IMG/VR virus record: IMGVR_UViG_3300025118_000055
Location: 1 to 38,053 of that record
Direction: 5' to 3' (one strand)
DNA from: a virus
DNA length: 38,053 nucleotides
Positions 1,834 through 38,040 of this stretch are shown one piece after another; the stretch's first letter is position 1, and each line of letters begins with the position of its first letter. Made by a program: the position numbers and the translations under genes. Under the pieces are notes generated by a model. The model saw only the letters and a list, made by a program, of their open reading frames with translations. It made no database searches and was not told where the DNA came from.

Positions 1834-1842
1834 AGCATACCA

Positions 1843-16500: not shown

Positions 16501-19500
16501 CGCCGGTATCGCCGAATCGGAACCGTCGAGGGCTCCCGCGGGGAACTCTATAATAGCATGATACCAGGTGTCCGCAGCAAGACCTGTGGTGCCTTGCGCG
16601 GCGGAGGTCGAGGGAGAGGTATCAAGGACTTCGCCAACAAGAACCCATTCAACGGTATTGTAGTATAGCCGTATGGAGAGTCCATCCTTCTTCCACGGGT
16701 GCGCATATATGGCCCCCAGATTAACCAGTCGCGGGGTGGATAAAGGGGAACCCGTATAATTGAACCAGAAGGAAACAGTAAGGCCGTCGGTGGACACATT
16801 ACTTAGCGCATTCTCCCAGGCGGAGTAGTCGGTGTCGTAGATGCGAGTCTCCAAACTATCGTCGAATAATATCGACTTGGCGACGACAGGTTCGGGCTCA
16901 TAAAGTGGGAACCTTCCTCTCGTTGCAAGAGTTTCGGGATAGCGCGCAAAGTCAAAGGACTGATCATTAAAGAATGGATCGTTCTTCATCCGCGAGTTTG
17001 TATTGACAACCTGATAGTTCTTCTCGTAGTTGCCGATGATCGTGGAGCCCGTGCGCATCTGGATGTTCTTGATGTTGACGGGGCGCTTGGCTGCGACTTC
17101 ACGGAAACGGTAAGCTGTTGGCCAGTGGGCTGGGCCGCTTAAGCGAGCATCAGGATCGGTGGAGCCCGTACGGGAGTTGGGCGGCAGGATAACCAATGAC
17201 TTCTTAGAAACCCCCAGAACATCGTCAGAGCCTCCATTGTCGAATTCTATGCGGAAGCCTTCGCCGCGGGTTTGATTGGTATCTGTGCCTTCATTCAATG
17301 CTGTGTGGCGATAGAAGCGGCCGCCAACATACTTCTCGGTGAAGGGGCCCTGCATCGGGACGTCTGCATTCATCACAAAGTCGTTGTGGAGATTTGTGAT
17401 CATGACGCCGGATGCATAATTCGCAACGACTTCGGCATTGAATCCTGTTGTTACAGACGAACTATAGAGGCTGAACGGTGCATGGCGAGGTCCAGAGACT
17501 GAGTCTCCGTTGCTGGCCGACAGGCCAAACCCTAATCGCTGCTTGAATGTGGGATAGAAAACATCCGGAGATGAAATTAGTTCTTCAACACTGCTTCCCG
17601 AGGAAACGAGCTTGTTCATTACGGGCCGGCCGCGGCCAATAACCTTAGATCCCAAGTTGCCCCATGCCCGGGCAGCCTGGAACACGTAATTAACTACTGA
17701 GTTGTGATGGCGAGATACTCCGCCGACGACGGTGGTACCTTCTACGCTAAATTTAACTGGCGAGTATGTCCTTCTATTGAAAGATTGAGAGATGGCTGTT
17801 ATGATCTTGGTGCGGTCAGAAGTGTCCGCCTCTTCCATGAAGCGGTGCCAGTATATGTTTTTGTTGGCGCCGTCGTTCGATATTAGATATGGATCGACGA
17901 AAGAAGGAGACACCGTCGCAAGGTCTGCGGTCTCAAGGTTTTGTCCGGTAGCGTTGCCAACGGCGTTGGACACCTGATTGTATATAGTATCCTTGTCGTC
18001 CCGGGGATCGCTCCCCATTCTATACCATGTAATCAAATTAGCAGCGCAACTTAGGCCGCTCAAATAAGTTCTCTTGCCTCCACCATAAATCTTTGTAACC
18101 TCATCACTCGATAATGCTTTATCCCATACTGCAAAATCGCACATACGCACATTTGCATAGTTACCAGGGGTGCCGGCGGTGGTGGCGGCCGCGATAGTTA
18201 ATCCCGTGGTAGCAAGAGCAGCTGGGGAGTCACTGGTGTTCGTCGTCTGAGTTGGTGCTGCGCCGTCGACATAAATAATGGGTGCTGCCGCATCGCCGCC
18301 GGCAAAAGTTACAACCACGTGGGCCCACGTGCCGGCCGACAACACATTTCCATCAGTTCGCCCCCAGGTCAGGGACGAGCAAGAGGCCGCGAGTCTTCCG
18401 GCGGAGGCATAGAAGAGCAGGTCGCGCCAGCCGCCGGGGGAGCTGTCGCCGAAGCGGAAAAGCCTTGTCTGGTTGGTGAGTGCCTGCGGATTAACCCACA
18501 TAGAAACACTAAAGGCTTTGGCAAGACCGGCCGCTCCACCAATTAAACCGTCCCACTCAGTGTGTGTTGAAGACTGTAAGTATTCATCGACTCCGTCAAA
18601 AAGAATGGACTTAGCTATGCCGCCATTATCAATATCCTGGAGAGGTGCGTGGAAGTGCTTCCAGGGTCGCGTCTGCGAAGTATTCGAGGAGCCAATCTGT
18701 CGCCGTGTGAAGGCTGTGTTCGCGAAGAACGATGTTCCCTGCGGGAATTCGTCCGGGGAGGCTTGAGCGCTCTTGTCGGCGCCCATATTGCCATCTATGC
18801 GAGCTGTTGGATCGGTCGTATCTGATTTCTCAAGGAACGGGAACTTTCGCTGGTACTTAGGTCGTTCCAGGACGTGGTTCTCAATAACCGTGCGCACGTT
18901 CTCGGCGATGTCGGCCGAAGCAGGCGCAAGTTGTGCAAGCATTGAGGAGAGAGCAGAGTCAAACCATTTATAGAATTCATAGAACTTATCGAAGTCTAGT
19001 TCGTCGTTTTCTACATTCTCAAAGAATTTCTGCTTCAGGAAGTTAATCGACTTATACTCTGGGCGCCACTGGTTGACGGGGTCGCCTATAAGGTTGTGGA
19101 AATCTTTCAAGGTAGCGAAGTAGTTGATCATTTCTTCAGAAATGGTCTGGTACATGCTCTTTTCGAATGCGAAGAAGTAATTGGTTGGCCGCGAATCTGA
19201 GGTGAACACATCCTGATCTGTCGCCGACAATACCTTAACCATTTCTTGGCTCTGGAGATTCTCAGGAAGATTCAGTTTGGAGGATATTACGAAATCCTTA
19301 TCTATAACTGTTGTAGAAGACGTTGCGAAGAGGGAGCCCCGAGCGGTGTAATTCCTATTTATAATTTGTCCCAGTGCGCCGAATGAGGCAGTTAGAGGGT
19401 TGGTGCTGGAGGCAAGAGACCCAGAGGTCAGATCAGCGACGGTGAATTGGCCGGCGGCGTTTGAGCCCGTATTGGTCAGGAACTCCCAGTTAAATACTAA

Positions 19501-22297: not shown

Positions 22298-23827
22298 TTA
22301 TTCGTTAACTCTAAATTTGAACGTTTGTGGTTGCTCTTGCCATGCTCCTATACTATCATTATAATAGGCTAATTTAATCTGATACATGTATCCCGAGTCC
22401 AACAGACTCATATTTAGATCGAAGTAATTACCTCCTTTATCATATGATAGGAATGTGCTCCTGTTGGAGCCGGTACCGTACGGGACTGCATTCAAATTAT
22501 CAATAACACGGCGAATGCTGTATGAAGCACTTGGAATAATTTCAGTTGGATTGTTTGGCGTTGCAACTGTGTAAATGGTTGGGCTCCAGTCTTTGCTGCG
22601 AACAAAGAATCTAAAGCGCGCTGTTTCTTTACGCGAGTAAGACTTATTAAGATTCTTACAACTCGTTACACGATTGAATGTGGGCGCCGAATCATATGTA
22701 GGCATAAGTTCAGGATACAGAGATCCGGTGTAGTATTCTACGCCGTCGCTGTGCCATACTTCATAAACCTTCTGAAGGGGTGTGGCTGCGGCGGTTAGTG
22801 CCACATCGACATTATACAGACCTGTGCTGGAATAACTACCTGTCGCATTAAGATCGTTTGTGGCCGCGACGTCACCACCGATCGGAAGTTTAATCTTTGC
22901 TCCGGTGGGGGCTGTGGCGGAGCCCGAATAAAAGGATACCAAGATATTGCCGGCGCCAACCTTGGGAATATTTACAAGACGACCGCGTACGTAGTTATAC
23001 AAGTAGAGGCGATTTAGGTTGTCAGCTGCAGGAGCAAGAGAACTGGAATATAAAAAGTTTTCTCTATCATCAGTAACACGGTCGTCCCAACGAGCTTCGA
23101 CCACCGGCCGGCGGAAAAAGAACTCTGTCGAGCGCGAAAAGAACCTCTTGGTATAATAAGATTGTGTGGCACCTTGTGTGTTTTGCAATACGCTGCCGCT
23201 CTGGCCGGAACCGAGGCCGCCTGCGGAACTAGAAAAATAGGCTTCTTGGCTGCCAGTAAGCTTGATCCCCAGACCATAGTCAGTCTGAGTACCATTAATC
23301 CACCGCTCAACCAGATTGCTGATGTCAACTTCAAGGTTCTCAAAGCCTAGTGGGAAACGCACATTGTGATTATTAACACTTCTATAGTCGCCGCCTACCT
23401 GAGTCCAAGAGGATGATGCGTTGGGCTTCATCCAGTTGCCAGTTCCCAGATCTTGGTAGTTGTCCATGTCGAGGCCGGCGCCCTCTCGCCAAGGCCGGGA
23501 GACAGGAGCAACCACTAGGTTGAAGTCTTGCGGGAGCGTCCATGGGGTGCGCGCGTTGTATAATTTTAATACAAATGAAACGGAGCCGCTAGCGCCAAGA
23601 CGGCCTGCAGCACGGTCGGCCGACATTTGGGATGTTGGGAAGGACATCAGAATTCGAGAAAGCTCCGGAGATTGTCCATTAGAACCTGACTCTTGTCCAT
23701 AAATTGAGAAGACCTCTAGTGCATCAGCATAACCCATATTGGAACCAGTGCCTCTAGTAATCATATCTGATTCATAGGCGTTGGTGATTGTCGTGTCTGC
23801 ACTAGCAGTGTAACGAAGTATAGACAT
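22298..23827 (-). CDS. Virion structural protein with DNRLRE-like beta-sandwich
   Basis: This 509-residue protein starts MSILRYTASADTTITNAYES. Residues about 1-215 follow the pattern of DNRLRE-type beta sandwiches: ADTTIT start, NMGYADALEVFSIYG, an SRILMSFPTSQM strand, VAPVSRPWREGAGLDMDNYQ, SSWTQVGGDY and VERWINGTQTDYGLGIKLTG. In bacterial surface proteins this fold acts as an adhesive or carbohydrate-associated module. The C-terminal half has repeated beta strands and ends PQTFKFRVNE, perhaps Ig-like domains. Its start overlaps the stop of the gp6-like gene as TAATG, and it ends 10 bp before the giant gp7/LamG gene. That placement suggests a wedge-surface subunit made alongside gp6 and the giant protein. 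The fold call is from pattern memory only. Confidence 0.68.
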   Translation of the reverse strand: MSILRYTASADTTITNAYESDMITRGTGSNMGYADALEVFSIYGQESGSNGQSPELSRILMSFPTSQMSADRAAGRLGASGSVSFVLKLYNARTPWTLPQDFNLVVAPVSRPWREGAGLDMDNYQDLGTGNWMKPNASSSWTQVGGDYRSVNNHNVRFPLGFENLEVDISNLVERWINGTQTDYGLGIKLTGSQEAYFSSSAGGLGSGQSGSVLQNTQGATQSYYTKRFFSRSTEFFFRRPVVEARWDDRVTDDRENFLYSSSLAPAADNLNRLYLYNYVRGRLVNIPKVGAGNILVSFYSGSATAPTGAKIKLPIGGDVAATNDLNATGSYSSTGLYNVDVALTAAATPLQKVYEVWHSDGVEYYTGSLYPELMPTYDSAPTFNRVTSCKNLNKSYSRKETARFRFFVRSKDWSPTIYTVATPNNPTEIIPSASYSIRRVIDNLNAVPYGTGSNRSTFLSYDKGGNYFDLNMSLLDSGYMYQIKLAYYNDSIGAWQEQPQTFKFRVNE

Positions 23828-25629
23828 TATCGGATTGACCCTTCAATATCAATGTTGGGGAATTTAAGTTCAAAAATCACATTCGGCTCTGCCAAGATAT
23901 AGCGACCATCGGCGCTCAGGTTCTTATTAAAGTCATAACTCACTCTAGCATACATCGCGCCCGTTCGACCGGTGATGCCAACATCATAAACGTCAACCAC
24001 GCCGTCGACGCGGCTCAAGACCTTATAAAATTCAGCTACTGTGATAGACTCTCCTACGTCGTATTGATTCCGGAACAAAAATTCTCTCAATGCAGCTGTT
24101 GCTTTATTTAAGACGGTATACCTGTTAGCACTTAAATCAATCGCCAAAGAAAATACTATCCCAAAGTTAACGATCGCGGCGTCAAGAATGTCAACCGTAT
24201 CGTTTATCATTTTATATTGTAGGATCCAGTTTCTTAAGTTATTTTTTATTGTTACGTTCGCCGCAGTTAATTTGCCACTAGCATTCTGTGAAACCACATA
24301 AATGTTGAGATTTCTTTTAAGCTCATCGAAATCGCGGAGGACCGCGGCACGTTTGATAGCACCGAACTTGTCGGGCATCGCATAACAAATAGTTTGATAA
24401 TCCTGCGCAGTCACAGCACGGTTCTGTGTGGCGAAGTAGCCCTGGACACGTTGCTTGATTTCATCAGAGGTTGGCAGCGAAATATCTCCTACGAAAGGTT
24501 CATCGTTTGAAACTTCCAACGACCCAATCACAGCATTCCTTTTAGATTGTAATAGGGCGCCCTGATTGGTGAACCGGAAGATCGGGCGGTTAACTGTAAT
24601 AATTGTGCCGACTGCTGCGTTAACATCTTGAGTGGTGTTGGATCGATAACCAATACGTAGCGTGGTGTTTGCGGGCGCAATACCGAATTTATCGGTGCTT
24701 ATAAGTTTTGTGGGGTCGAAATTCATATCATTAATATAATTTCTGCCTGGCAGTTGTAGAACCAAGTTAGATGGATCGACGACCGACTCTGAGAGTAATT
24801 CTGAATCTGAGCCGTATCCGAACTGAATGAACGCTTTGCCGGCGACACGCTCAAGAATAAACCTTCTTGCGACGGGGACCGCTTTCAGCAGATTCTTTAC
24901 TGTGTTGCTAGTGCTACTGTTTGAGTTGGGAATAGCTTTATAGATGATATTTTGAGATAAGTTGTCAACCTCATAATACACGTGACCTTCACTATCGGTA
25001 ACCGAGAGTACTTCAGCGACGTTGGATGTTTCCAAATTCACCTTTAGGAAGCGCTGGAAGTTGCCGACCGTTACTTCTTGGAAACTAGTGCGGCCCGAGA
25101 CTGCTCTCCCCTGCGAACGAATAATATAGCTTGTTGGCGCACCGGTTGAGGAATTAACCTTTCCCGGGACGACTTGATTTGAAGTTTCAGCGAAGTTGAT
25201 GTCTTCTACTAGGGTATACTGGCCGCCGCCGATAGAAGAGAATGTAGATCCCATTGTGAGGCGAGGTGCGTAATCAAGATCCGGGCCCAGATTAACTGCA
25301 TCAGAAGGAACTTCTAAGTAAAAGGTGAGCACCCCATGGGAGCTAGGTGCTGTATTGAGTTTGAATCCCATTTGGCGAGCGAGGCGAACAACATTATTGT
25401 ATTCGATAGCCGTATCTAGGAAGCTCTCATTTGCCTGATAGTCTAGGTAGAACGACAGTATATCTCCGACGTATGCTACTGTGTCTAGCATTAAGGAGCC
25501 AAATGAGGCCTCGTTAAAATCTTTGTATGTATCAGGGTAGTAACGCTTAGCGTAGTTCTCCAGGTCGCGACGAATTGATTCAAAATCGCGGCTAGTATAA
25601 TCAATTGGTTGTAGTTTTTTATTACTCAT
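23827..25629 (-). CDS. 6: Baseplate wedge protein gp6-like (baseplate J family)
   Basis: This 600-residue protein is close in size to T4 gp6 (about 660). The N-terminus has the conserved pattern IDYTSRDFESIRRDLENYAK, then FNEASFGSLMLDTVAYVGDI and LSFYLDYQANESFLDTA (residues about 9-74), typical of gp6/baseplate-J proteins. A second signature at about residues 390-430, RVQGYFATQNRAVTAQDYQT followed by AIKRAAVLRD, matches the central J-family region. T4 gp6 dimers form the inner ring that holds the wedges together around the hub. The start has GAGG 8 bases upstream and lies 17 bp after the gp25-like stop; the gp25-gp6 order is the same as in many myophages. The stop overlaps the next gene as TAATG. 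The frame is intact with no signs of decay. Confidence 0.9.
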   Translation of the reverse strand: MSNKKLQPIDYTSRDFESIRRDLENYAKRYYPDTYKDFNEASFGSLMLDTVAYVGDILSFYLDYQANESFLDTAIEYNNVVRLARQMGFKLNTAPSSHGVLTFYLEVPSDAVNLGPDLDYAPRLTMGSTFSSIGGGQYTLVEDINFAETSNQVVPGKVNSSTGAPTSYIIRSQGRAVSGRTSFQEVTVGNFQRFLKVNLETSNVAEVLSVTDSEGHVYYEVDNLSQNIIYKAIPNSNSSTSNTVKNLLKAVPVARRFILERVAGKAFIQFGYGSDSELLSESVVDPSNLVLQLPGRNYINDMNFDPTKLISTDKFGIAPANTTLRIGYRSNTTQDVNAAVGTIITVNRPIFRFTNQGALLQSKRNAVIGSLEVSNDEPFVGDISLPTSDEIKQRVQGYFATQNRAVTAQDYQTICYAMPDKFGAIKRAAVLRDFDELKRNLNIYVVSQNASGKLTAANVTIKNNLRNWILQYKMINDTVDILDAAIVNFGIVFSLAIDLSANRYTVLNKATAALREFLFRNQYDVGESITVAEFYKVLSRVDGVVDVYDVGITGRTGAMYARVSYDFNKNLSADGRYILAEPNVIFELKFPNIDIEGSIR

Positions 25630-25646: not shown

Positions 25647-26042
25647 CTAATTAGACTCCACATTGATCTGTAGGTTAGATAAAAGTTGTAAAGGTGTAAT
25701 TGTAAAGATGATATTCACAGACAAGTTATGAGGATATAGATCCGGATTGTCTTCCGGGATGGCATATTGGATATCATTTATCTCAATATATGGCAGATAT
25801 AGCCCGGTTTGCTCTAGTATCCTTTCTGTAATCTTATCATAGGTATCAGAGGTATTCTGTTCAAAAAGATATCTCCTTAGGCCGATGCCGAAGTCGGGAT
25901 CCATTATCCTCTCGCCCGGGATCGTGAGTACCAGCATCTTCAAATTTTGCTTTGCTAGTTCAAAGAAGTTCGTGTTAAGGTTATATGCCCCGAAAATCTC
26001 GCTTGTGACAAGAGGCAGTGCAACTGATAGTCCAGAACTCAT
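25647..26042 (-). CDS. 25: Baseplate wedge protein gp25-like
   Basis: This 131-residue protein is essentially the same length as T4 gp25 (132). The family signature is clear: LTIPGERIMDPDFGIGLRRY followed by LFEQ at residues about 39-63, then a helix with DKITERILEQT and the strand pair YIEINDIQYAI and LSVNIIFTITPL. In contractile tails gp25-type proteins sit in the wedge core with gp6 and gp7 and link it to the sheath. A GGGGAG ribosome site lies 9 bases before the ATG. It is flanked by the 605-residue gene (20-bp gap) and the gp6-like gene (17-bp gap), a classic arrangement that supports the call. Confidence 0.93.
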   Translation of the reverse strand: MSSGLSVALPLVTSEIFGAYNLNTNFFELAKQNLKMLVLTIPGERIMDPDFGIGLRRYLFEQNTSDTYDKITERILEQTGLYLPYIEINDIQYAIPEDNPDLYPHNLSVNIIFTITPLQLLSNLQINVESN

Positions 26043-27899: not shown

Positions 27900-30800
27900 T
27901 TATAGCCCACCGAATGGGGCTTCTTGCGTATCTGTCGGGATTATGCCGGCCCGTACTTTTTCCAGCATAGTCTGTTCTGTTCCTCCGGAGCCAAATGATG
28001 GCAGCATACCACTAAATTCAAAGATGTTAACGACATCCGGGTCAACTCCGTCTCCGCCGCCATAATAATACCACATTTTGATCGTGGCTCTTTTCACTTT
28101 TTTGGTCAATTGATAATATTTACGAGTTAAGAATACTCTTGGAGTATCATCTGTTCCATAATACTCTTGTATCTTCTGCACTAGCACACCGGGATATTCA
28201 TTGGTAACCGTGAATGTTGGGATGCTGGCCAGAAATGCTTGATCTAAAGAAACCGGATTATTACCGGGGACCGACATCCGGATCGCTTTAGCAACCGACT
28301 CGCGACCCAAATATAAACGTTCAGAGATCAAATAGTCAATTATTTCATCAAATCCCACAAAGGCGCCAGAGTCTGTTACAGAAAAAGTTACTCCCGTCGG
28401 AAAAGCTATCGTACCATTAGAATATTTGATACCCCCTTGTGCCACGTTACTCTCTCGATTAATTTTTATATTAAAATAACTAACCAAGTCGCGGCGGACT
28501 GTCGACTCATCCATATTTTCACTATTTCTTAGGAATGTAAGGAGTGATGTCGTTATCTGCTTGCGTAAGAACTTGAATATAAATCCACTTTGATTCATGG
28601 CGTCGGCTTCGCCGTCGGTCAGAAGACTATCAAGCTTAAAGGCAGTCATCACAAAAATATTCTTGATAAAAATTTGTGCGATCTGCATCTGAATCAGTTC
28701 AAGGTGCATGCCATACTTGATAACATTACGAATAATAGTCCGGCTGGGGATCTCGGGCCTATCGTTACACATCGCCTCTACATACTCGTCCTTCAGTTGT
28801 TTCATAATACCTTGGACATCCAGCAGATCGGCGACCTCAGATGGTGGACAATTTTCATTAAGATGGAAAAGTGTCAATGATTGCAAAGTGGCGGCATCAA
28901 AGACACCATTTGTAATCACATAGTTAAACATGTTGTCAACTAAAATTCCATATACAGTGGGGAAGTGTTTTGATTCTATGAGTGCTTTTGTTTCAGGTGT
29001 GAGGGCACCGTCAACGGATAAAGTCGACGACGAAAATGAATCTACAAACGGTTGAATATAGGTGTTTTGAATATTGTTCGCGGCTGTTTCAAATTCCTGT
29101 TCGAGCATGCTCTCGGTTATCTCTTCCATCAGTTGTTGTTGAGGGATATAGTCGCCGCTCGATTCGAATTCGACAAAAATGTTGGGATTGTTTGGAGACT
29201 CGCGCGGGTATTGTATTTTTAGGTAACTGCCGTGTGACTGTAGGTTTGCCGTTGTTGCTTTTAGAATGGCGTCAGGGATAAGGATCCGCGCGGTGAGGAG
29301 ATCATTATAGGCGTCGTCGAAGCTGAGAGAGAGGAGCGAGTCGAGCTGTTCTTGCTCGGTGGCCACTAGTCTAACATTTTTCTCTGCCTCATAATAATCA
29401 ATCAAAGCCGCAAAGTGATCGGTCATATCCCTGTTCATATAGCTTTGAATAGCCGAGAGCATGGTTGGGGTTAATTCGCTAAGGGGGACCAACTTAAGGA
29501 CACTGGCAGAATATCTAATCTGATTGTATATAATAGGATACTCTTCTTGGAATGTCGGCGGGTAGTCCGGAGTCGGCGAAGACGTTGGGTCCGCTTGCCA
29601 CGCGGCTCGGGCTTCTGCTCCTATTAGTGGCCACGGAGTTGATAAGTCTGCCATAGACTCAGGATCAGAGGGGGGAGCTATGCTTAATGTTAGATAATAG
29701 AGTATTCTTCCTATTACCCGATCATCACTCCAGTGGATCTCTGGGATGTTGATAGGACCTCCGACTTCCGACATCGCGAGGGCCGGGGTACCGGCTGCCC
29801 AGTCGGTCGTGTTGTCGGTACTCGGTTCTGCGGCTGCGACGGGAATGGAAGTTTCCAGCAACGGCGAATTAGGATGAACGTGATCGCCGGGGTATGATGT
29901 ATCGCCATAAGCATTGTGTTCGTCAACATAGCCCGGGTCGCCGGGGGTAAGCCCATTGTCGGGGTTAGCATTTGGATGAACCGTCTCCTCGGTGGAGGAG
30001 CCGACAGGATGAGCGTGGGTGGTGCTAGGGGCGTTCGGTATCGATGGGGCCGTCGGGAAGTCGGGTGCCTCGGTCGCTCCGGGGGCGCTAAAAAGGAATG
30101 GAGTCGCAGTCGGAAAGTTAAAGTTGATCTCAATCGGCTTATAGCTTCCGTCTGTAATCGGTATCTGTGTAAGCGTGGAAGGGGGGATTATGCCCGAGAA
30201 CTCCTGAGCATCATTTATTACTGTCGATGAGAAGTTCCACGGGATTGTGAGGCTTCCGGGAACATATCCTAGGCGATCTAATTCAATATAATTGATGAAC
30301 TCGCGATAAAACTGCAGATTAAAGCGATAGGACGGGAACACGGGCATTCCGGGATTGGCGGGGTCACCGGATGGTGTGCTGAGGCCCATCAATTGAGCTT
30401 TTATATTATCGATAGCTGATATAAAACCTGGGTCTTGCATCGTGTCAGACACCATCGAGGTGATATCCCCGCCTATTCCGGCGATCTCAGCAGGGTCGAA
30501 CCCAAGGATCTGTGATACATCAACATCACAGCTTTCAAGATCAAAGCTGGCAACAGCATCGAGCGCCTCGATGATTTTAGCCACGAAAGCTGGATCGAGT
30601 TTCGGTGGCCAACCGTTATCTTCGTAATTGTTGCCTAGGGCTCTTAAGGCATCCAAGATGGAACCATCACTATCTGTCGTAAATTTCTGCTCCAACATTA
30701 ATGTTTTAACAGCTTCGGCAGAATTTACAAATTGTGTCTCTATCAGTTGTGTCAATGTGTTGAATAGCTCTGGGACTGTGATTGTAATCGTGGGATCATT

Positions 30801-33032
30801 GATGAAATTTTCTTTATCCGGACAATCAAAGTTAAGGACAGGCATCTTAAGTTCAATCCCGTTCTCCATGAGATCCAACAACTCTTCCATCTCGACAGTC
30901 GGAGCGTTACCCGGAGTAAGACATATCTCAATATTGTCTTGGTTGGCAAAATATACTTCATTCGCGATCGCGTTGCACAGGTCTGTCACATCGACCATCA
31001 TCGACATTTCATTAAAGAACGCCAGAATCGTTGAGTAGGTGATAACCTTATTCTGAAAGTGTTGGTTTGGATATTCCTTGTTGAACTCCATTATCTTATC
31101 GAGAGTGTCTGGGCCGATGGCGGCTCGATTAGTGAAGAGCTGACATATCTCCATAGAACTTAGGATTCCGGAGACGGCCGTGAGATAGGCCTGAAGCTCT
31201 TCAGCAGTGAGTGCCCGTTGGCCTGCGAGCTGATCTAATGCTGAGCCGGCTCCAAGAAGGTCCGGTGTCTGCAGATCCGGCGCAATAAGGTCGGCAATAT
31301 CAGTCGCCCCATAATCGGTAGCCCTTGGGTTATTAAGGGGACAATTATATTTGAGGAGATCTGCTAGCTTCTTAATAATATCTAAAACGGATTGCTGGAG
31401 GGAGTCGATTACCGTATCCAGAACTTGTTTCCAGATATCTCCACTGATTGTAAACATCTTAAAGTCGTCTGGGTTAATGTATGGTTTTCGGATGTCGCCG
31501 CCCGGGCGTGTAAGCGGCGGAGGCAGATACAAAGAGGCCTGGGCTTTTGTTAGGCTAGCCTGCACGGCCTTTCCTATGCGGCCCAACTCAACGTTCAGCC
31601 CCATTGTCAAACAGATTACAGCTTCTTTCGCGATCTCCTTGATCCCGAACATTTTGAAGATGTTGCTAACAATGGGATTTTTCTCTATGAATCCCATGGG
31701 GCCAGTTTCCAGAACGTTGTTTATTATTTTTACCGTGTCGATCGCATTCCCTAGATTCTTTTTGGCCTCGTCAACCGATACTTTTTTAAATACCTCGGGG
31801 TTGTCTGCTATTTTAAGTTTGAGAGCTTGGAGTTGTTTGGACGAAAATGCTGTTTTAAACCCCTTCTCTAGGTCATCGGTATTTTCAATGTCAATGTTCA
31901 TCATCTGCTTTGCAGCATTAATGAATGCATTGCCAGGTTCACCGGGAGGAGAGAGGGCACTGCTTGGATCGAATACAGTGCCGGCAACGCCGAAATTAGT
32001 GGCCGGGAGGCCGAGGACACCCTGAACCTCTGGGTTTCTCATAAATTCCATAAAACCTGAGGTGGCGGAGCCGGCTGACTGCTGACCTGGGGCTGAGATG
32101 GCATCTAAAATAGTCTGATAGTTTTTTAGAGTTATGAGGGTGAGAGGATCTCTGACTGTATTATTAAACTTAATGTTTGACATATACCCAATTCTCATTG
32201 GGCGCGATGCTATAGATTCTTCAACAAGAAGATAATCAATACGAGATATGGCGATTTGTTTGCCACCGGGGACTCCGGGTGCCTCCATCGAGCCAAAGTA
32301 TACTGTCATTGTGTCAGCTTGGCTAAACTTATAGGTTGGTGTGGTGGCCTTCAGTTGTTTTGTCAATAGAGTCACAGCCAGACTGATTGCTGATTGCGTT
32401 GTGGCGGCCAGCATGGACATGTCTGGTGTTAATGATAGTTGCCCTTCCATCCCTCGCATCTGTGTATTGAAGGCCTTCAGGCCGTCGTTGAGAGTACTGT
32501 TGGTTTTGCCGATTGTCCCGATCGCAAATGTAGAGGATGCATCCGTACCCGAGATCTTTTGATGAGTATTAAAGAAAGCAAGACTCTCCTCATAAGAAGG
32601 AAGACAGTGAGCGCTCTTGATCCCTTCTCTCTTTTTGTCGACATCATAGACTAGGGCCACCACAATTGACAGCTTAGCTGGATTTGGTAGCGGATCGACT
32701 CGGCCAATGACAATCTTGCCTTTAATATCACTCTTAAGGTCGCCAGCGACTTCAGCATTAGAATTTATAATAAGAGAAAAGGCGGTCGAGTCATATAAGA
32801 ACGCATAAAACTCAGGGAAATAGTGAGTAATAAAGCGATTGGTCGCAACATTTTTAATATAGCTCTTGTCGGTTGTTGTGAAATCGCCTGGTCGTGTGAC
32901 TCCCGCTGCCCGGCTGTCGAATCTCTCTTTTTTGATTTTAAGCTTAATAAAGTGCTCACCCCGCTGCGCATCATAGAAGGGAATATTGTACTGTTTGCCA
33001 GGATATTTTTTTGTTGTGGATTCGTCGACCAT
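27900..33032 (-). CDS. Very large virion structural protein with His-x-His motifs (1710 aa)
   Basis: This 1710-residue protein has no signal peptide. The N-terminal 130 residues mix charged and beta segments (GEHFIKLKIKKERFDSRAAG, GKIVIGRVDPLPNPAKLSIV). Residues about 370-620 are helical and include a GGDIRKPYINPDDFKMFTIS stretch and an amphipathic helix, QQSVLDIIKKLADLLK. Residues about 970-1085 are Pro/Thr/Ser-rich with two HxHP motifs, HAHP (His1006, His1008) and HVHP (His1051, His1053), and other histidines between. The last 600 residues are mainly helical, ending TQEAPFGGL. The gene lies between the 330- and 605-residue genes. HxH pairs bind iron in the T4 gp37 fibre tip and in some phage spikes, so metal binding is plausible but unproven. 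A hub or central tail role is inferred from its neighbours; it is not obviously a tape measure, being too mixed in structure. Confidence 0.72.
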   Translation of the reverse strand: MVDESTTKKYPGKQYNIPFYDAQRGEHFIKLKIKKERFDSRAAGVTRPGDFTTTDKSYIKNVATNRFITHYFPEFYAFLYDSTAFSLIINSNAEVAGDLKSDIKGKIVIGRVDPLPNPAKLSIVVALVYDVDKKREGIKSAHCLPSYEESLAFFNTHQKISGTDASSTFAIGTIGKTNSTLNDGLKAFNTQMRGMEGQLSLTPDMSMLAATTQSAISLAVTLLTKQLKATTPTYKFSQADTMTVYFGSMEAPGVPGGKQIAISRIDYLLVEESIASRPMRIGYMSNIKFNNTVRDPLTLITLKNYQTILDAISAPGQQSAGSATSGFMEFMRNPEVQGVLGLPATNFGVAGTVFDPSSALSPPGEPGNAFINAAKQMMNIDIENTDDLEKGFKTAFSSKQLQALKLKIADNPEVFKKVSVDEAKKNLGNAIDTVKIINNVLETGPMGFIEKNPIVSNIFKMFGIKEIAKEAVICLTMGLNVELGRIGKAVQASLTKAQASLYLPPPLTRPGGDIRKPYINPDDFKMFTISGDIWKQVLDTVIDSLQQSVLDIIKKLADLLKYNCPLNNPRATDYGATDIADLIAPDLQTPDLLGAGSALDQLAGQRALTAEELQAYLTAVSGILSSMEICQLFTNRAAIGPDTLDKIMEFNKEYPNQHFQNKVITYSTILAFFNEMSMMVDVTDLCNAIANEVYFANQDNIEICLTPGNAPTVEMEELLDLMENGIELKMPVLNFDCPDKENFINDPTITITVPELFNTLTQLIETQFVNSAEAVKTLMLEQKFTTDSDGSILDALRALGNNYEDNGWPPKLDPAFVAKIIEALDAVASFDLESCDVDVSQILGFDPAEIAGIGGDITSMVSDTMQDPGFISAIDNIKAQLMGLSTPSGDPANPGMPVFPSYRFNLQFYREFINYIELDRLGYVPGSLTIPWNFSSTVINDAQEFSGIIPPSTLTQIPITDGSYKPIEINFNFPTATPFLFSAPGATEAPDFPTAPSIPNAPSTTHAHPVGSSTEETVHPNANPDNGLTPGDPGYVDEHNAYGDTSYPGDHVHPNSPLLETSIPVAAAEPSTDNTTDWAAGTPALAMSEVGGPINIPEIHWSDDRVIGRILYYLTLSIAPPSDPESMADLSTPWPLIGAEARAAWQADPTSSPTPDYPPTFQEEYPIIYNQIRYSASVLKLVPLSELTPTMLSAIQSYMNRDMTDHFAALIDYYEAEKNVRLVATEQEQLDSLLSLSFDDAYNDLLTARILIPDAILKATTANLQSHGSYLKIQYPRESPNNPNIFVEFESSGDYIPQQQLMEEITESMLEQEFETAANNIQNTYIQPFVDSFSSSTLSVDGALTPETKALIESKHFPTVYGILVDNMFNYVITNGVFDAATLQSLTLFHLNENCPPSEVADLLDVQGIMKQLKDEYVEAMCNDRPEIPSRTIIRNVIKYGMHLELIQMQIAQIFIKNIFVMTAFKLDSLLTDGEADAMNQSGFIFKFLRKQITTSLLTFLRNSENMDESTVRRDLVSYFNIKINRESNVAQGGIKYSNGTIAFPTGVTFSVTDSGAFVGFDEIIDYLISERLYLGRESVAKAIRMSVPGNNPVSLDQAFLASIPTFTVTNEYPGVLVQKIQEYYGTDDTPRVFLTRKYYQLTKKVKRATIKMWYYYGGGDGVDPDVVNIFEFSGMLPSFGSGGTEQTMLEKVRAGIIPTDTQEAPFGGL

Positions 33033-33043
33033 AATAGATTTGC

Positions 33044-34036
33044 CTAATTTGTGTGGTTATACTTACTTAAGATGTCCTGATCGACGGCATTATCGCCGCT
33101 TCCCTTGACGCTAACTGCGCCTCCTGGGGCTTCGAGAAAATTCTGCTGTGTCGCAAGAAGCTTTTGCATGTGAAGTTTAAGCTGTGTTTCGACGTTTGTA
33201 ATTTTGTTGATCAATGATTCTACTCCGCGTGGGACCATGTCTATAGCTGGAGCAGTAAGGATCCCGAAAAACGGTGAGTAGTGCTGATGTTTTAATATCT
33301 CTGTTGTTAAGTCGCGGTCATATTGAACAAAGTTAGAAAATAGTCCACTTAGTTCGTGAATTGAGGCCGCTATCTCTTTCAGGCACTGCTTTAGATTATC
33401 ACCCTTAACAAGTGGCTGCATATCTCTGTCATCATTCATAGCAATCAAATTGATTCCAAATGCTTGCTGGCACGTGTTGTTCAGTTCTCCGCCTTGAGAG
33501 TTCTTCCAGTCTGTCTTAGTAATAAGCTTAATGTTTTCTCTTGCAATAAGCCTTACTGTGTCTGCTTTCAGCGCCACTGTACTACGTGGAGCTAATTGTG
33601 AAGTGTTGCCGACTGTTCCTTCTGCGAGACCAAAGAAATGGTCAACGTTTGATTGCTGTGATAGGTACACGCGGGCGGCGTCCAGTTTGAAGTTGGGGTC
33701 GACATAGTTAATGTTCCCCTCGCTATCTTTCTTGCGAGCCTGGAATCCTAGCCGGCCGGCAACGATGTCGATAGATGCGCAGTGCATGTTCCTCGTGCCT
33801 CCGAAGCCAGACAGGATGTTGTTTGGGCGGTCAAGACCCAAGACAATAAAAGAGTTGCCCTGACTCATTACCTTCTCTACGTTGGTCGTGATATACTCGG
33901 GGACTTCCCAGTCGTCTCTGGCGCCTTGGCCGAAGCCGAAGAAGCGCGCTTTACCTTCATCGTCTAGAGAGTCATAATACGCTCGGACGATTGGTGGTAG
34001 TTTGTCTATGTCGATTGCTTTTGATGATTTTGCCAT
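33044..34036 (-). CDS. Virion protein, possible gp5-type spike or needle component
   Basis: This 330-residue protein starts 1 bp after the amidase stop, with AAGG about 6 bases upstream of the ATG. The N-terminus is charged and helical (SKAIDIDKLPPIVRAYYDSL). The middle has short strands of the form STVALKADTVRLIARENIKL then ITKTD, an alternating Val/Leu pattern with charged turns that resembles the C-terminal beta-prism/helix of gp5 and VgrG spikes. GxGG and IDIVAGRLGF segments precede it. The C-terminal third is helical (HELSGLFSNFVQYDRDLTTE, then ITNVETQLKLHMQKLLATQQ), so it may also trimerise through a coiled coil. It directly follows two lysins whose N-termini may be gp5-like, so it may be the non-enzymatic needle part of the same complex. 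This is inference; no family is confidently recognised. Confidence 0.66.
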   Translation of the reverse strand: MAKSSKAIDIDKLPPIVRAYYDSLDDEGKARFFGFGQGARDDWEVPEYITTNVEKVMSQGNSFIVLGLDRPNNILSGFGGTRNMHCASIDIVAGRLGFQARKKDSEGNINYVDPNFKLDAARVYLSQQSNVDHFFGLAEGTVGNTSQLAPRSTVALKADTVRLIARENIKLITKTDWKNSQGGELNNTCQQAFGINLIAMNDDRDMQPLVKGDNLKQCLKEIAASIHELSGLFSNFVQYDRDLTTEILKHQHYSPFFGILTAPAIDMVPRGVESLINKITNVETQLKLHMQKLLATQQNFLEAPGGAVSVKGSGDNAVDQDILSKYNHTN

Positions 34037-34037
34037 A

Positions 34038-35450
34038 TTAACCTTCTGGGTCTGGGAGTGCCTTTACCATATCTATCACTTTCTGGAACGGGTAATAAAC
34101 GCCCGGGTCATATTTATGATTTACTTCCGGTGGATCGGGCACTCTCGCCTTGTGGTGAGATATCAGGCCACCGTCGCCCACATCCTGACTCACGGCCATC
34201 GGGGTGCCATCAGGGTTCTTGGCGCCGGCGGCCTTTCCCAGAGACTCGGCCGTCGGATAGTCCACCCTCGAGGCGCCGGAGCCATCGAGGCTAGGGTGGC
34301 CCTTGGAGTTAGATGTATAGCTTCCGGGCGACAAGCCCTCATACACTAAGGGAATGTTGAATTTGTCGCTCAAGTATTTAATCAATCCGGCTGATGCTCT
34401 GAGCATAGGATCACCCCAATTGTTGGGGTCGGCGGCGTGACCTTCGTGCTCAATATTAATAGAATTATAGTTTGTAACGCGGCCTTGAGTTGGTCCGATA
34501 GCAAATGGCGCCTGGTTATCGGGCATTAGTGCATACACATTGCCTGATTTAGCCACAAAATATTGAGTGCTAGCTTTTCGTGTGAACATTTTGCCTTTGT
34601 TTGGTCCCCCTTTTCGATACCCAGCTAGCACATCCAAATTCCCCTGCTCCCCGGGACTAATTTCTGTAGTATGGATAACGATCCACTTAATTTTTGACGC
34701 GTCGGCGTTCTTATTTGGTGTTTGGGATGGTTTGTGGCCATCCCAATTATAAGAACCATAAAACGTGGCGTCCTTGTAGAATTCTCCCATGTCCGCGGTG
34801 GTTATGCGGCGATTGGTGGTGTCTATATGACCTGTATACTTCTCGTCAGAGCCGTGCACATTCGCGCTGAGGGCGCCCAGGTTTGTGGGAGTGGTGCCAC
34901 TGAAGCCCTCTACGAGTCTCTGGCCAGAAGAATCGACACTTAGGTTTTCAATTTGAAGGTCTCTTGCGAGTACTTTAACAATTTTAGGATTCGAAAGGGT
35001 CGCAGGATTTTCATATCTTACTAGGACCATGCTGCCCAAGGGGATTACTTGAGCACCTGGCATCTCGGTATATACATCCGGGTATGTCCTTAGAATAGGA
35101 TCTTTGTTTCCTTTTGGTGCTGGTCGCGGTTCTAGTTCTGGAATATATACTTTGTACGCCACATGAGCTTGTTGTACAGAATTATCCTCGGTGCTGCCTT
35201 GCGTATACTCCAAAAGCATTGATGCCTTATTCTGGTACACCGGAAATGTAACACTACGATATGATACGATAAACCCATTGAACTCCGAGCGGTCTTCTAA
35301 CGTGTCTGGCTCGTAGGCCTGCTTCGCTCCTCGCTGTAGGCTTGTTGACGTAGAAGTCCGGCGCGGGTCCCCAGTAAGCTGAGATTGTTTTAGATCAGCT
35401 ATTTCGTTCAGAGCGCCATAGCTAAGATCTTTTAACTTGATGCCAGTCAT
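34038..35450 (-). CDS. Tail-associated lysin: shared N-terminal domain plus N-acetylmuramoyl-L-alanine amidase
   Basis: This 470-residue protein has two parts. Residues 1-160 are nearly the same as those of the M23 protein encoded just upstream; they include a beta-rich region (AYKVYIPELEPRPAPKGNKD, VIPLGSMVLVRYENPATLSN, PKIVKVL) that resembles an OB-fold of gp5/VgrG type. Residues about 253-460 are an amidase_2/PGRP-like domain: KWIVIHTTE with zinc ligand His260, STQYFVAKSGNVYALMPDNQ, NSINIEHEG with Glu335, and the closing SHHKA (His432/433) with KYDPG (Asp448). Enzymes of this type cut the bond between N-acetylmuramic acid and L-Ala. A Gly/Ser/Pro-rich insertion (about residues 372-428) separates the core from the last ligands and is unusual. 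The start overlaps the M23 stop as TAATG. It is probably carried on the tail and acts at cell entry; a free endolysin is less likely given the shared structural domain. Confidence 0.86.
   Translation of the reverse strand: MTGIKLKDLSYGALNEIADLKQSQLTGDPRRTSTSTSLQRGAKQAYEPDTLEDRSEFNGFIVSYRSVTFPVYQNKASMLLEYTQGSTEDNSVQQAHVAYKVYIPELEPRPAPKGNKDPILRTYPDVYTEMPGAQVIPLGSMVLVRYENPATLSNPKIVKVLARDLQIENLSVDSSGQRLVEGFSGTTPTNLGALSANVHGSDEKYTGHIDTTNRRITTADMGEFYKDATFYGSYNWDGHKPSQTPNKNADASKIKWIVIHTTEISPGEQGNLDVLAGYRKGGPNKGKMFTRKASTQYFVAKSGNVYALMPDNQAPFAIGPTQGRVTNYNSINIEHEGHAADPNNWGDPMLRASAGLIKYLSDKFNIPLVYEGLSPGSYTSNSKGHPSLDGSGASRVDYPTAESLGKAAGAKNPDGTPMAVSQDVGDGGLISHHKARVPDPPEVNHKYDPGVYYPFQKVIDMVKALPDPEG
34971..35450 (-). 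repeat. Duplicated 480-bp segment, copy in the amidase gene
   Basis: The first 160 codons are duplicated relative to 36299-36778. DNA identity is patchy but high, with long identical runs such as the one around actttaacaattttaggatt at the domain end, and the first 41 codons differ at only one residue. This points to a fairly recent duplication or later gene conversion. Confidence 0.85.
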
Positions 35451-36778
35451 TATGCGGTTGCCTTATTTTCGCCCCACGGGGGGTGTACCTTGGGGATGGA
35501 GGCGCGATGAGTCTCGGCCGGATGAGAGCCGTCGTAATAAGCAAGCCACTCTGTGGGATAAAAGTCCGCTGGATGGAGCCTTGGGTGTCCTTGGTATTCT
35601 ATAAAATGATCTGATACATCGAAGTGGAGATGTGCAGCTTCGGACATTCCCGTATCTCCTACATATCCTATAAGTTGGCCCTTCTTAACGGTGGCGCCCT
35701 TCCTAAGGGTAGATGGCATGTCCAGATGCACGTAACGAACATAATATCCTGAGGTGGTTTTTATCTGTATTGTGTTTCCGGCTCCATTTGGTTTGCCGTC
35801 GCGTTTGCAAATACTCGCGGGACTGTGTATCACTTCTCCGTCCTCCACAGCATATAATGGAGTACCGGTTTTGGCACTGATATCTAATCCGCCGTGCAGT
35901 TTACCGGTGGAAGTCCTGTTATATCCACTAGAAACGCGGAGGGCTGGGACACCCTCTCTACTATTTTTGCCTTCTCCCGGTCGTACGGGAAGTATGAAAT
36001 CGCTTTTGGTATTCTTGAATTCCGGCGCGTTGTAGTCGCGTTTGCGCCAATCGTTTTGATGTAGTTGTGTACCGAGCTGATAGTCGCTACCTTTCACAAG
36101 AGTGACGCCTGTTGATCCGGCCTTTTTCTTTGGCTTGCTATAACTTAAGCACGAATGGTCTGTGCCCGGGCCGGGGATACTGCCATAATTTCCGCCGGGG
36201 CCGGTGTTTTCCAGAGATCGTGGTGGACCACCAGAGGAAAATCCGCCAGCGAGGCCACCGTTGTCGCCTAAGCCCTCGACGCCACCAACTTTCGACAGTA
36301 CTTTAACAATTTTAGGATTCGAAAGTGTCGCAGGATTTTCATATCTTACGAGGACCAAACTGTTCAAAGGAATTACTTCCGAAGTAGATAGTTCAGAATA
36401 CACATCTGGGTATGTCCTTAGGATGGGATCTGTGATACCCTTTGGCGCCGGGCGCGGCTCCAACTCTGGAATATACACTTTATAAGCTGTGTGTCCTTGC
36501 TGTGCGGATTCGTTGTCCGATCCACCGAACAAGTATTCTCTAAACATTGAGGCTTTGTTTTGGTATACCGGATGTGTTACTGCCCGGGATGCCACAACGA
36601 AACCATTAAATTCCGAACGGTTCTTGAGAGTGTTTGGTTCATACGCTTGTGCGGTGCCGCGCTGAAGACTTGTTGACGTAGATGTGCGGCGAGGGTCGCC
36701 AGTAAGTTGAGACTGCTTAAGGTCTGCTATTTCGTTCAGGGCGCCATAACTAAGATCTTCTAATTTGATACCAGTCAT
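35450..36778 (-). CDS. Tail-associated lysin: shared N-terminal domain plus M23 zinc endopeptidase
   Basis: This 442-residue protein starts MTGIKLEDLSYGALNEIADL, 40 of its first 41 residues matching the next gene. Residues 1-160 are the shared, probably OB-fold, domain. Residues 166-250 are a Gly/Pro/Lys-rich linker. Residues about 258-412 are a LytM/M23 metallopeptidase: RVSSGYNRTSTGKLHGGLDI with His295 and Asp299, YYVRYVHLD with His351, and AAHLHFDVS with His383/His385. The zinc ligands expected for M23 (H-x3-D and the second His of H-x-H) are all present, so the enzyme should be active on peptidoglycan cross-bridges. It starts by TAATG overlap from the 103-residue gene and ends by TAATG overlap into the amidase gene. 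Being fused to a structural domain beside baseplate genes, it is most likely a virion-borne lysin analogous in role to T4 gp5 lysozyme. Confidence 0.88.
   Translation of the reverse strand: MTGIKLEDLSYGALNEIADLKQSQLTGDPRRTSTSTSLQRGTAQAYEPNTLKNRSEFNGFVVASRAVTHPVYQNKASMFREYLFGGSDNESAQQGHTAYKVYIPELEPRPAPKGITDPILRTYPDVYSELSTSEVIPLNSLVLVRYENPATLSNPKIVKVLSKVGGVEGLGDNGGLAGGFSSGGPPRSLENTGPGGNYGSIPGPGTDHSCLSYSKPKKKAGSTGVTLVKGSDYQLGTQLHQNDWRKRDYNAPEFKNTKSDFILPVRPGEGKNSREGVPALRVSSGYNRTSTGKLHGGLDISAKTGTPLYAVEDGEVIHSPASICKRDGKPNGAGNTIQIKTTSGYYVRYVHLDMPSTLRKGATVKKGQLIGYVGDTGMSEAAHLHFDVSDHFIEYQGHPRLHPADFYPTEWLAYYDGSHPAETHRASIPKVHPPWGENKATA
36299..36778 (-). repeat. Duplicated 480-bp segment, copy in the M23 gene
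   Basis: This is the partner of 34971-35450. The two copies are in direct orientation, about 1.3 kb apart start to start, so they are a potential site for recombination that would delete one lysin or swap catalytic domains. Confidence 0.85.
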
Positions 36779-37089
36779 TATTCTTCCTCTTCGAGATTCT
36801 CGTTTAGTAGATCGAATAATTGCTCTTTGTCGTCAGCAGACAGCCCCGTGCTAACAGATGTCTGGCGCTGGAGCAGACTGGCGAGCTTAACCATCTGTTC
36901 GTTTGACCTCTGAAGGTTTTCGATATATTTGGCCGCCATTGAGCCCATCTCTCGACGGGCGTTCTCGGAAGCCTTCATATCTTGTAGAGCATCCATAAGA
37001 AGCGACTTGGCCATGGCCCGGTCTTCTCGGATGTTGGTGGTAGTTTCTATTATGTAATCATCTAGATTTAGATTTCGCCGTTTTCCCAT
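36778..37089 (-). CDS. Small helical protein next to the late sigma factor
   Basis: This 103-residue protein is almost wholly helical by composition: MGKRRNLNLDDYIIETTTNI, then MAKSLLMDALQDMKASENAR, AAKYIENLQRSNEQMVKLAS and a C-terminal acidic stretch containing KEQLFDLLNENLEEEE. It overlaps the end of the sigma gene by 22 bp, with AAGG just upstream of the ATG, and its stop overlaps the M23 lysin start. I believe similar small proteins occur beside gp55 in other T4-like phages, but I do not know a function. The QLFDLL stretch is loosely like a sliding-clamp-binding peptide, and T4 late transcription uses a small clamp-binding co-activator, gp33 (112 residues); this is a weak analogy. It could equally be a small structural chaperone. 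Confidence 0.68.
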   Translation of the reverse strand: MGKRRNLNLDDYIIETTTNIREDRAMAKSLLMDALQDMKASENARREMGSMAAKYIENLQRSNEQMVKLASLLQRQTSVSTGLSADDKEQLFDLLNENLEEEE

Positions 37090-37769
37090 TTGCCTTTAAA
37101 TGTCCTATACCGTTTTCTGAGTTTGTTTAAGTTGTTCACGACTTGTTTGGTGTTCAGGCCAGTGATCTCTCTCAGGTATAAATAAATAGCTTTTTTATTG
37201 AAAATTTCGATTGTGTCGGCCGATTCCATTAAGATTCGTACTGCCATCAAGACCTTTTTCTCATTTTCTTTGAGCATAAAGGAGTCCCAGGTATCTATTT
37301 CGTGGTCCAGAGAACCCCAAAACTCAATCTCTGTACGCTTTGAAAGATATGTAGGTTCGCGAGAAACTAGATTCTCTTCCATCTGATTAAGAAGATCCTC
37401 CATGAAGACTTCTGTCTGGTTTCTCTTCTTTGTCTTCTTGACTTTGTGAATAAACCAGTTCTTGGTTACAACAGAAAAATAGGAGAAGGCCTTCGACCCT
37501 TTGCTTGGATCATACTTGTTTAATATTGTGGTTAGCCAAACCTTGCAGTCATCCTTCAGATAATCTATGTTTGGCAATGTAGTAAAACGATAAGTATAAA
37601 TTATCTTATCAACCATCTGATCAAGGGCTGGCTGTATATATTCAACATATAATTTCCCCCTAAGTTCTCTGTCGTCTGTGGATGCATATTTTATTATGGC
37701 ATTTTCGTGAACAGAAGTAAAATAATGGTTCTTTGTTGACTTTTTACGCGTCTTCTTCTTCGGCGGCAT
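37068..37769 (-). CDS. 55: Late-transcription RNA polymerase sigma factor, T4 gp55-like
   Basis: I place the start at 37769, giving 233 residues beginning MPPKKKTRKKSTKNHYFTSV. A GGAGG ribosome site lies 9 bases before this ATG, whereas the upstream in-frame ATG at 37796 would put that site inside the gene. The signature is at about residues 85-115: KYDPSKGSKAFSYFSVVTKN followed by WFIHKVKKTKKR, the sigma region 2-like element that contacts RNA polymerase and opens the promoter. The C-terminal part (NKKAIYLYLREITGLNTKQV then VNNLNKLRKRYRTFKGKW) looks like a helix-turn-helix. T4 gp55 (185 residues) directs the host polymerase to late promoters. This one is longer, with the possible HTH as extra. 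It overlaps both neighbours, so it is part of the same operon as the tail genes. Confidence 0.85.
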   Translation of the reverse strand: MPPKKKTRKKSTKNHYFTSVHENAIIKYASTDDRELRGKLYVEYIQPALDQMVDKIIYTYRFTTLPNIDYLKDDCKVWLTTILNKYDPSKGSKAFSYFSVVTKNWFIHKVKKTKKRNQTEVFMEDLLNQMEENLVSREPTYLSKRTEIEFWGSLDHEIDTWDSFMLKENEKKVLMAVRILMESADTIEIFNKKAIYLYLREITGLNTKQVVNNLNKLRKRYRTFKGKWENGEI

Positions 37770-38040
37770 CGAGTTCTTCCTCCACCATCTCGGCATCTAG
37801 AGAATATTCAAATATACCCCTAAATCGTTCCATTTCAGTACCGACATCTCTGGTTCTTTCCATCAGTTCTCGTATTATTGGTTCGCCATGATAGCTTTCC
37901 ATACTATACATCGATTTCACAAAAACTTGAAAGGCTTTTGTGGTCAAGAACAGGTCAGCTAAATTTTCAGAAATAAAATAAAATTTCTTTAATAACTTAG
38001 CAACGTACCAAACTAATAGCAGGTTCACCGTGGCAGACAT
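37744..38040 (-). CDS. Small membrane-anchored protein with acidic tail (start may lie beyond the window)
   Basis: From the ATG at 38040 the protein has 98 residues: a hydrophobic N-terminal segment (VNLLLVWYVAKLL), then helical charged sequence (KFYFISENLADLFLTTKAFQ, YHGEPIIRELMERTRDVG) and a very acidic end (EEELDAAEEEDA). The frame stays open up to the window edge, adding Ile-Trp-Leu-Ile before this Met, which would lengthen the membrane segment; the true start is therefore probably just outside the window. A single N-terminal membrane anchor with a cytoplasmic helical domain is predicted. The last 26 bp overlap the sigma gene. I do not recognise a named family; the gene's position suggests it is co-transcribed with the late sigma factor. 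Confidence 0.65.
   Translation of the reverse strand: MSATVNLLLVWYVAKLLKKFYFISENLADLFLTTKAFQVFVKSMYSMESYHGEPIIRELMERTRDVGTEMERFRGIFEYSLDAEMVEEELDAAEEEDA
37779..37783 (-). promoter_or_regulatory. Ribosome binding site that decides the sigma gene start
   Basis: The minus strand reads GGAGG 9 bases before the ATG at 37769. It lies within the coding sequence of the preceding small protein and downstream of an alternative ATG at 37796, so it argues for the shorter sigma product. Confidence 0.7.

Follow-up and report, generated by a model that had tools for sequence, protein, structure and literature searches.

Why would a contractile phage carry, side by side, two genes for cell-wall enzymes that begin with almost the same protein domain, and what would this domain do? 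The question arises in the window, the whole stretch of 38,053 nucleotides analyzed here (IMG/VR record IMGVR_UViG_3300025118_000055), which belongs to a contractile phage known solely from metagenomes. The two genes and their parts are as follows.

35450..36778, minus strand: tail lysin 1, 442 aa, docking domain and M23 peptidase (ORF; Pfam M23, E = 5.5e-22)
34038..35450, minus strand: tail lysin 2, 470 aa, docking domain and Amidase_2 (ORF; Pfam Amidase_2, E = 8.4e-14)
35448..35452, minus strand: TAATG stop/start overlap of the lysin genes (sequence)
36284..36778, minus strand: docking domain of lysin 1, residues 1-165 (79% identity to the lysin 2 copy; OB fold of the homologous copy)
34956..35450, minus strand: docking domain of lysin 2, residues 1-165 (AlphaFold2 model mc236120e2b62; VIA-align and Foldseek matches)
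36290-36625, minus strand: predicted OB core of lysin 1, about residues 52-163 (OB fold of the homologous copy)
34962-35297, minus strand: predicted OB core of lysin 2, about residues 52-163 (AlphaFold2 model, structural matches)
35612..35899, minus strand: M23 peptidase domain, lysin 1 residues 294-389 (Pfam; H295/D299, H383/H385)
34086..34718, minus strand: N-acetylmuramoyl-L-alanine amidase domain, lysin 2 residues 245-455 (Pfam; H260, E334, H432, D448)

The genes are adjacent and joined by TAATG, base 35450 being common to both ORFs (one-base overlap), and translation of the two is likely to be coupled through this junction. Their products share 40 of the 41 N-terminal residues and are 79% identical over residues 1-163 (blastp); the N-terminal domain of one lysin retrieves the other at E = 2.8e-85, which excludes chance, while past approximately residue 165 no meaningful similarity is found. 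Judged by this resemblance, lysins 1 and 2 are paralogues; the docking-domain tree described below places their duplication as recent. A second contig, IMGVR_UViG_3300025066_002035 (45,214 bp), contains an identical pair (100%).

The C-terminal parts are different wall enzymes. Lysin 1 matches the Pfam family Peptidase_M23 at residues 294-389 (78.2 bits against a cut-off of 28.7), and its motifs H295-x3-D299 and H383-x-H385 are intact. Lysin 2 matches Amidase_2 at residues 252-371 (52.5 bits against a cut-off of 26), and residues H260, H432, D448, and E334 are likewise intact in the alignment with its relatives. From what is known of the two families, we take these residues to be the zinc ligands of the M23 enzyme and the ligand and catalytic residues of the amidase. 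The initial annotation had described two TAATG-joined genes with a common N-terminus that diverge completely into two different enzymes with intact ligands, and this description was borne out in every part.

The shared domain was modeled by AlphaFold2 on an alignment of 11 docking domains, using the lysin 2 copy (mc236120e2b62). The model contains a five-strand OB-like domain at about residues 52-163, with pLDDT of about 75-87 over most of it; the mean pLDDT is 62 overall, residues 1-50 and those beyond 165 being poorly modeled. When the model was compared with known structures, including the gp5- and VgrG-type OB folds suggested in the initial annotation, spike OB domains ranked first in VIA-align 2 (P1 baseplate, Z 8.9; cyanophage A-1(L), 8.2; VgrG proteins, 8.0). 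Further matches were extracellular contractile systems (Z 7.3-7.8), Mu (7.2), and the R2 pyocin (6.9); OB folds are common, and unrelated OB proteins (IF1, DNA ligase, proteasome) occur in the same list at Z 7-7.7. Foldseek against BFVD returned three close relatives first (27-28% identity) and, below them, many gp5 “baseplate hub + tail lysozyme” proteins and gp5 OB-fold domains. Ribosomal proteins, which led the Foldseek list against the PDB but with an E-value of only about 2e-3, were rejected as relatives. A sequence profile of the docking domain yielded nothing significant in the PDB, no sequence relatives of the lysins or of the docking domain were found among 50,697 named phage genomes beyond matches to the M23 domain, and cellular genomes gave pattern matches but no relative. 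The model supports the OB fold of the shared domain well, and the contractile-tail spike class is the best reading of this fold, given the VIA-align and BFVD matches and with help from the gene context; the N-terminal domain fits that class at the level of fold and with moderate confidence, unrelated OB folds being close behind. It is very probable, from these matches and the fixed baseplate context described below, that the shared domain is the virion-docking part of the lysins, as had been proposed. The viral proteins A0A1B1IUR3, A0A1B1IUR4, and A0A1B1IUT8 in BFVD (440-472 aa) match the docking model with E of about 1e-10, and their near-consecutive accessions suggest another array.

The gene context comprises the following neighbors.

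37068..37796, minus strand: late sigma factor, gp55-like (phrog_234, 1.6e-5; position conserved)
36778..37089, minus strand: small conserved gene, 103 aa, always preceding the lysin slot (gene order in relatives)
33044..34036, minus strand: putative central spike, 330 aa, a separate gene with H250-x-H252 near its end (always next downstream in relatives)
25647..26042, minus strand: gp25-like baseplate wedge protein (Pfam GPW_gp25, 9.8e-10; phrog_261)
23827..25629, minus strand: gp6-like baseplate wedge protein (phrog_219, phrog_10646; tblastn to Mel-JY01 and Immutovirus)

Wherever a contig reaches far enough, the order of the sigma factor gene, the 103-aa gene, one to three docking-enzyme genes, and the 330-aa gene is constant. 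Because it adjoins the lysin genes, the 330-aa protein is the putative spike, encoded apart from the docks. Its H-x-H motif is invariant (alignment A4); at the tips of known phage spikes, H-x-H forms a metal site. A comparison of its model with the PDB gave generic coiled coils only and no informative fold match. Relatives of this protein were found in at least 578 stretches of IMG/VR by a scan of viral contigs with alignment A4, so the group is large. Two long reading frames of the window also belong to this context: a 1710-aa protein (27900-33032), whose gene is flanked by the putative spike gene and the gp25 region and which has no Pfam or PHROG match, is a possible hub component, and a 3900-aa ORF (10585-22287) that contains several Laminin_G_3 (concanavalin-like) domains probably encodes a tail or fiber protein.

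The duplicated dock reported in the initial annotation is a real pair but not a one-off, as it proved to be one state of a variable slot. Scans of viral contigs, in line with the search for similar gene pairs proposed there, revealed about 80 further viral loci with the same slot, and in related phages the arrangement recurs with further combinations of two or three enzymes. In most relatives the docking-enzyme gene is single; two are present in the window and in L178, L179, L189, L196, L214, and L283, and three in L185, L197, L201, L268, and L288, while arrays of more than three were not seen among the relatives' loci. Tandem arrays occur in at least seven separate lineages, and in L192 and L202 two or three enzymes are fused behind a single dock (muramidase, GDSL, and M15 in L192). 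In L195 (468-2983) and L239 (468-2967) the fused muramidase-GDSL-M15 gene is split into two overlapping ORFs, which is a frameshift or an assembly error.

More than ten enzyme families were recognized in the slot by Pfam or local profiles: M23, Amidase_2, SLT, phage lysozyme GH24, tail lysozyme PF18013, muramidase PF11860, a second muramidase-like group (phrog_37890/phrog_90), VanY/M15 types, SGNH/GDSL esterase, DUF2272, GH19-like, and, once, a dual-specificity-phosphatase-like domain. The latter was found in the third docking gene of L201 (6290-7612), which encodes a dual-specificity/tyrosine-phosphatase-like domain (HCKAGTDRTG) and no wall enzyme; a cut-off relative of this gene is present in L282 (2-649), and a virion-borne phosphatase would, if so, be unusual. 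In L161, the same slot contains a 204-aa hub ORF of OB length without an enzyme (1341-1955, plus strand as reverse complement). A distant relative, L158 (4172-6981), has two slot genes, the second with a GDSL esterase, and their N-termini are not alignable in sequence to those of the window. The distant loci L154-L163 were excluded from the main counts, because for most of them docking homology lacks sequence support.

In the first sample, GDSL esterases were present in 8 of 11 multi-enzyme sets and in none of 27 single-enzyme loci (p = 3e-6; p = 2e-4 when collapsed to lineages). After an upstream GDSL fragment (L275) was taken into account, L212 was moved from the single-enzyme to the multi-enzyme group, and the counts become 9 of 12 against 0 of 26. 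Held-out new loci gave 3 of 4 sets against none of 19 singles (p = 0.002). The pooled counts are 12 of 16 against 0 of about 45, with pooled p-values that are too small because the loci are related; the single-locus counts in this comparison were made by hand. In typed arrays, a GDSL esterase is almost always paired with an enzyme that cuts glycans (muramidase-like, PF11860, or lysozyme-like). Lysozymes are blocked by O-acetylation of the peptidoglycan, which SGNH/GDSL esterases reverse (PMC6174289), so such pairing is sensible, the substrate of the slot GDSL enzymes being putative. Since GDSL esterases occur only beside a second enzyme, the gene content suggests that the enzyme sets are functional. 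Non-redundancy of the arrays, counted as those without a repeated enzyme class, was not significant (p about 0.09-0.13), and the idea that arrays never repeat a class was abandoned, L268 holding two tail-lysozyme-type domains. No recognized glycan-cutting enzyme is part of the sets of the window (M23 and amidase), L189 (M23 and M15), or L197 (amidase, DUF2272, and M15).

In the tree of docking domains, the window pair are sisters (support 0.93) that split after the single-copy L165, the nearest relative, whose one gene encodes a third enzyme type (SLT). The L189 pair are also sisters (0.99), and the triples of L185 and L268 each group together (about 0.86); the copies in L178/L179 and in L197/L201 go back to older, shared duplications. 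The enzymes do not track this tree: the docks of L166 and L169 are 92% identical and their enzymes unrelated, and the M23 domains of the window and L189 are 53% identical, compared with 32% for the docks. Synonymous identity of the window's two docking copies is clustered at codons 141-160, on the domain border (17 identical codons of 19; clustering p = 0.011), a pattern that recombination or gene conversion close to the joint would produce. On the evidence of the tree and these identities, docks stay alike within a genome while enzymes are exchanged, and tandem copies arose in several lineages.

The precursor of T4 gp5 is cleaved into gp5* (OB domain and lysozyme) and gp5C, the spike (PMC3004832). 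As in gp5, a peptidoglycan hydrolase (M23 or Amidase_2) comes after an N-terminal OB domain in both lysins, and they would stand beside a spike at the hub, trimeric in T4 and putative here. Unlike gp5, neither lysin continues into a triple-stranded beta-helix spike in the same precursor, both ending with the enzyme, and in the window phage separate genes encode the gp5*-like part and the putative spike; moreover, the enzyme is not fixed in its group, where the gp5*-like genes number one to three and bear different enzymes. The locus is of the gp5 tail-lysozyme type, with a separate putative spike gene and a varying number of docks that bear exchangeable enzymes, and not of a new kind. Evolved VgrG proteins of type VI secretion systems (T6SS), for which heterotrimers have been proposed (PMC8668125), are similar in being OB-fold spike proteins with C-terminal enzymes and several paralogues per system. 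They differ in forming a chain of gp27-like, OB, and beta-helix parts within a T6SS cluster, whereas the lysins lie in a phage baseplate context, have the enzyme directly after the OB domain with no beta-helix or other further domain, and would target wall bonds at entry.

Two virion lysins were known, according to a 2017 review, only in PRD1 (P7, P15) and Staphylococcus phage phi11, later cases being possible (PMC5380687). The window phage would resemble these in having two different wall enzymes in one virion; there, however, the enzymes as described are not paralogues on one dock, whereas here a duplicated dock carries both. In phage phi29, gp13 delivers lysozyme and M23 domains at one tail tip; it is a single polypeptide, from a short-tailed phage, and its better counterparts are the fused forms of L192 and L202. 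The Microcystis phage Mel-JY01 and the Flavobacterium Immutovirus have the same order of a sigma-like gene, a small gene, and a hub gene, then gp25 and gp6, but their hub slot encodes one polypeptide of 378-503 aa that lacks an enzyme. That such fused hubs (Mel-JY01, Immutovirus, LR756508) were split into dock and spike is in keeping with position and an HTH motif; as the profile comparison of the dock/spike pair with these hubs gave no significant homology, the idea is kept as a suggestion.

We consider it probable that the paralogous lysins 1 and 2 are virion tail lysins that occupy equivalent hub positions and degrade the wall when the tail contracts. Each would dock through its gp5-type OB domain on the baseplate hub, around the separately encoded spike, and the M23 endopeptidase and the N-acetylmuramoyl-L-alanine amidase would open the wall in the course of contraction. 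The locus serves as a slot for exchangeable enzymes, in which the dock is retained and tracks the genome while recombination close to the border between the domains replaces the enzyme, and tandem duplication, or else fusion, would provide two or three activities per virion. For the window phage we infer that both enzymes are in the virion and are used in one particle, docked to the hub in the place of gp5, perhaps as a mixed trimer.

The mixed trimer, a stronger form of this reading in which paralogous OB docks co-assemble and each tip bears both enzymes (one of each in three-copy phages), is a real possibility, though it falls short of being probable. VgrG heterotrimers have been described in T6SS, but in Aeromonas the apparent requirement for one proved to be a need for several effectors (PMC8668125). 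Docks are closer within a genome (70% in the window) than to L165 (47-52%), as expected if they must fit each other and the same partners, but a recent duplication or gene conversion could by itself account for this likeness; similarly, the copy number never exceeds three among relatives, but this maximum is based on few lineages. The dependence of GDSL esterases on a partner also speaks for co-assembly, being useful only if both enzymes act at the same entry site. The same dependence, together with the fusions that put two or three enzymes on one dock, favors joint action over alternative homotrimers, i.e., one enzyme type per virion in a mixed virion stock as a bet against differing host walls. 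This arrangement seems rather unlikely, even though the window docking copies differ most in residues 43-100, which could bias self-assembly, and some T6SS reportedly use multiple VgrG proteins as alternatives.

Tandem pairs could also be passing stages of enzyme replacement by dock recombination, with little benefit from two enzymes. The synonymous identity concentrated at the border codons is what recombination would leave, and the nearest relative, L165, has a single gene with a third enzyme, but the pairs of L178/L179 and the triples of L197/L201 persist across divergence, the ligands are intact in both window enzymes, and the GDSL association would be unexpected under neutrality, making such turnover distinctly improbable. 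Finally, the catalytic domains resemble endolysin families, and one or both lysins might act in the lysis phase, outside the virion; we regard this as very improbable in view of the common OB dock, the position in the baseplate block, the fixed spike-gene neighbor, and the enzyme-less OB-length version in the same place in L161. The GDSL dependence and the fused forms favor joint delivery of the enzymes. Within the preferred reading of both proteins as virion tail lysins, we tentatively suggest that tips might be hetero-oligomeric, with two or three paralogous OB docks per hub that would deliver a matched enzyme set at each puncture, re-composed by swaps; such sets might consist of an esterase and a glycosidase, or of peptide-side cutters as in the window.

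The slot offers a natural series of one, two, and three docks, with more than ten enzyme families in tandem and fused forms, in which one can ask whether contractile tips can be hetero-oligomeric and whether wall entry requires enzyme combinations. The docking domain would be a portable handle for mounting unlike enzymes on a tail. Hints of the wall chemistry in the uncultured hosts come from the recurrent pairs (esterase with muramidase; M23 with amidase or M15), and it seems that this group of phages equips its injection tip with enzymes that are exchangeable and sometimes mixed.
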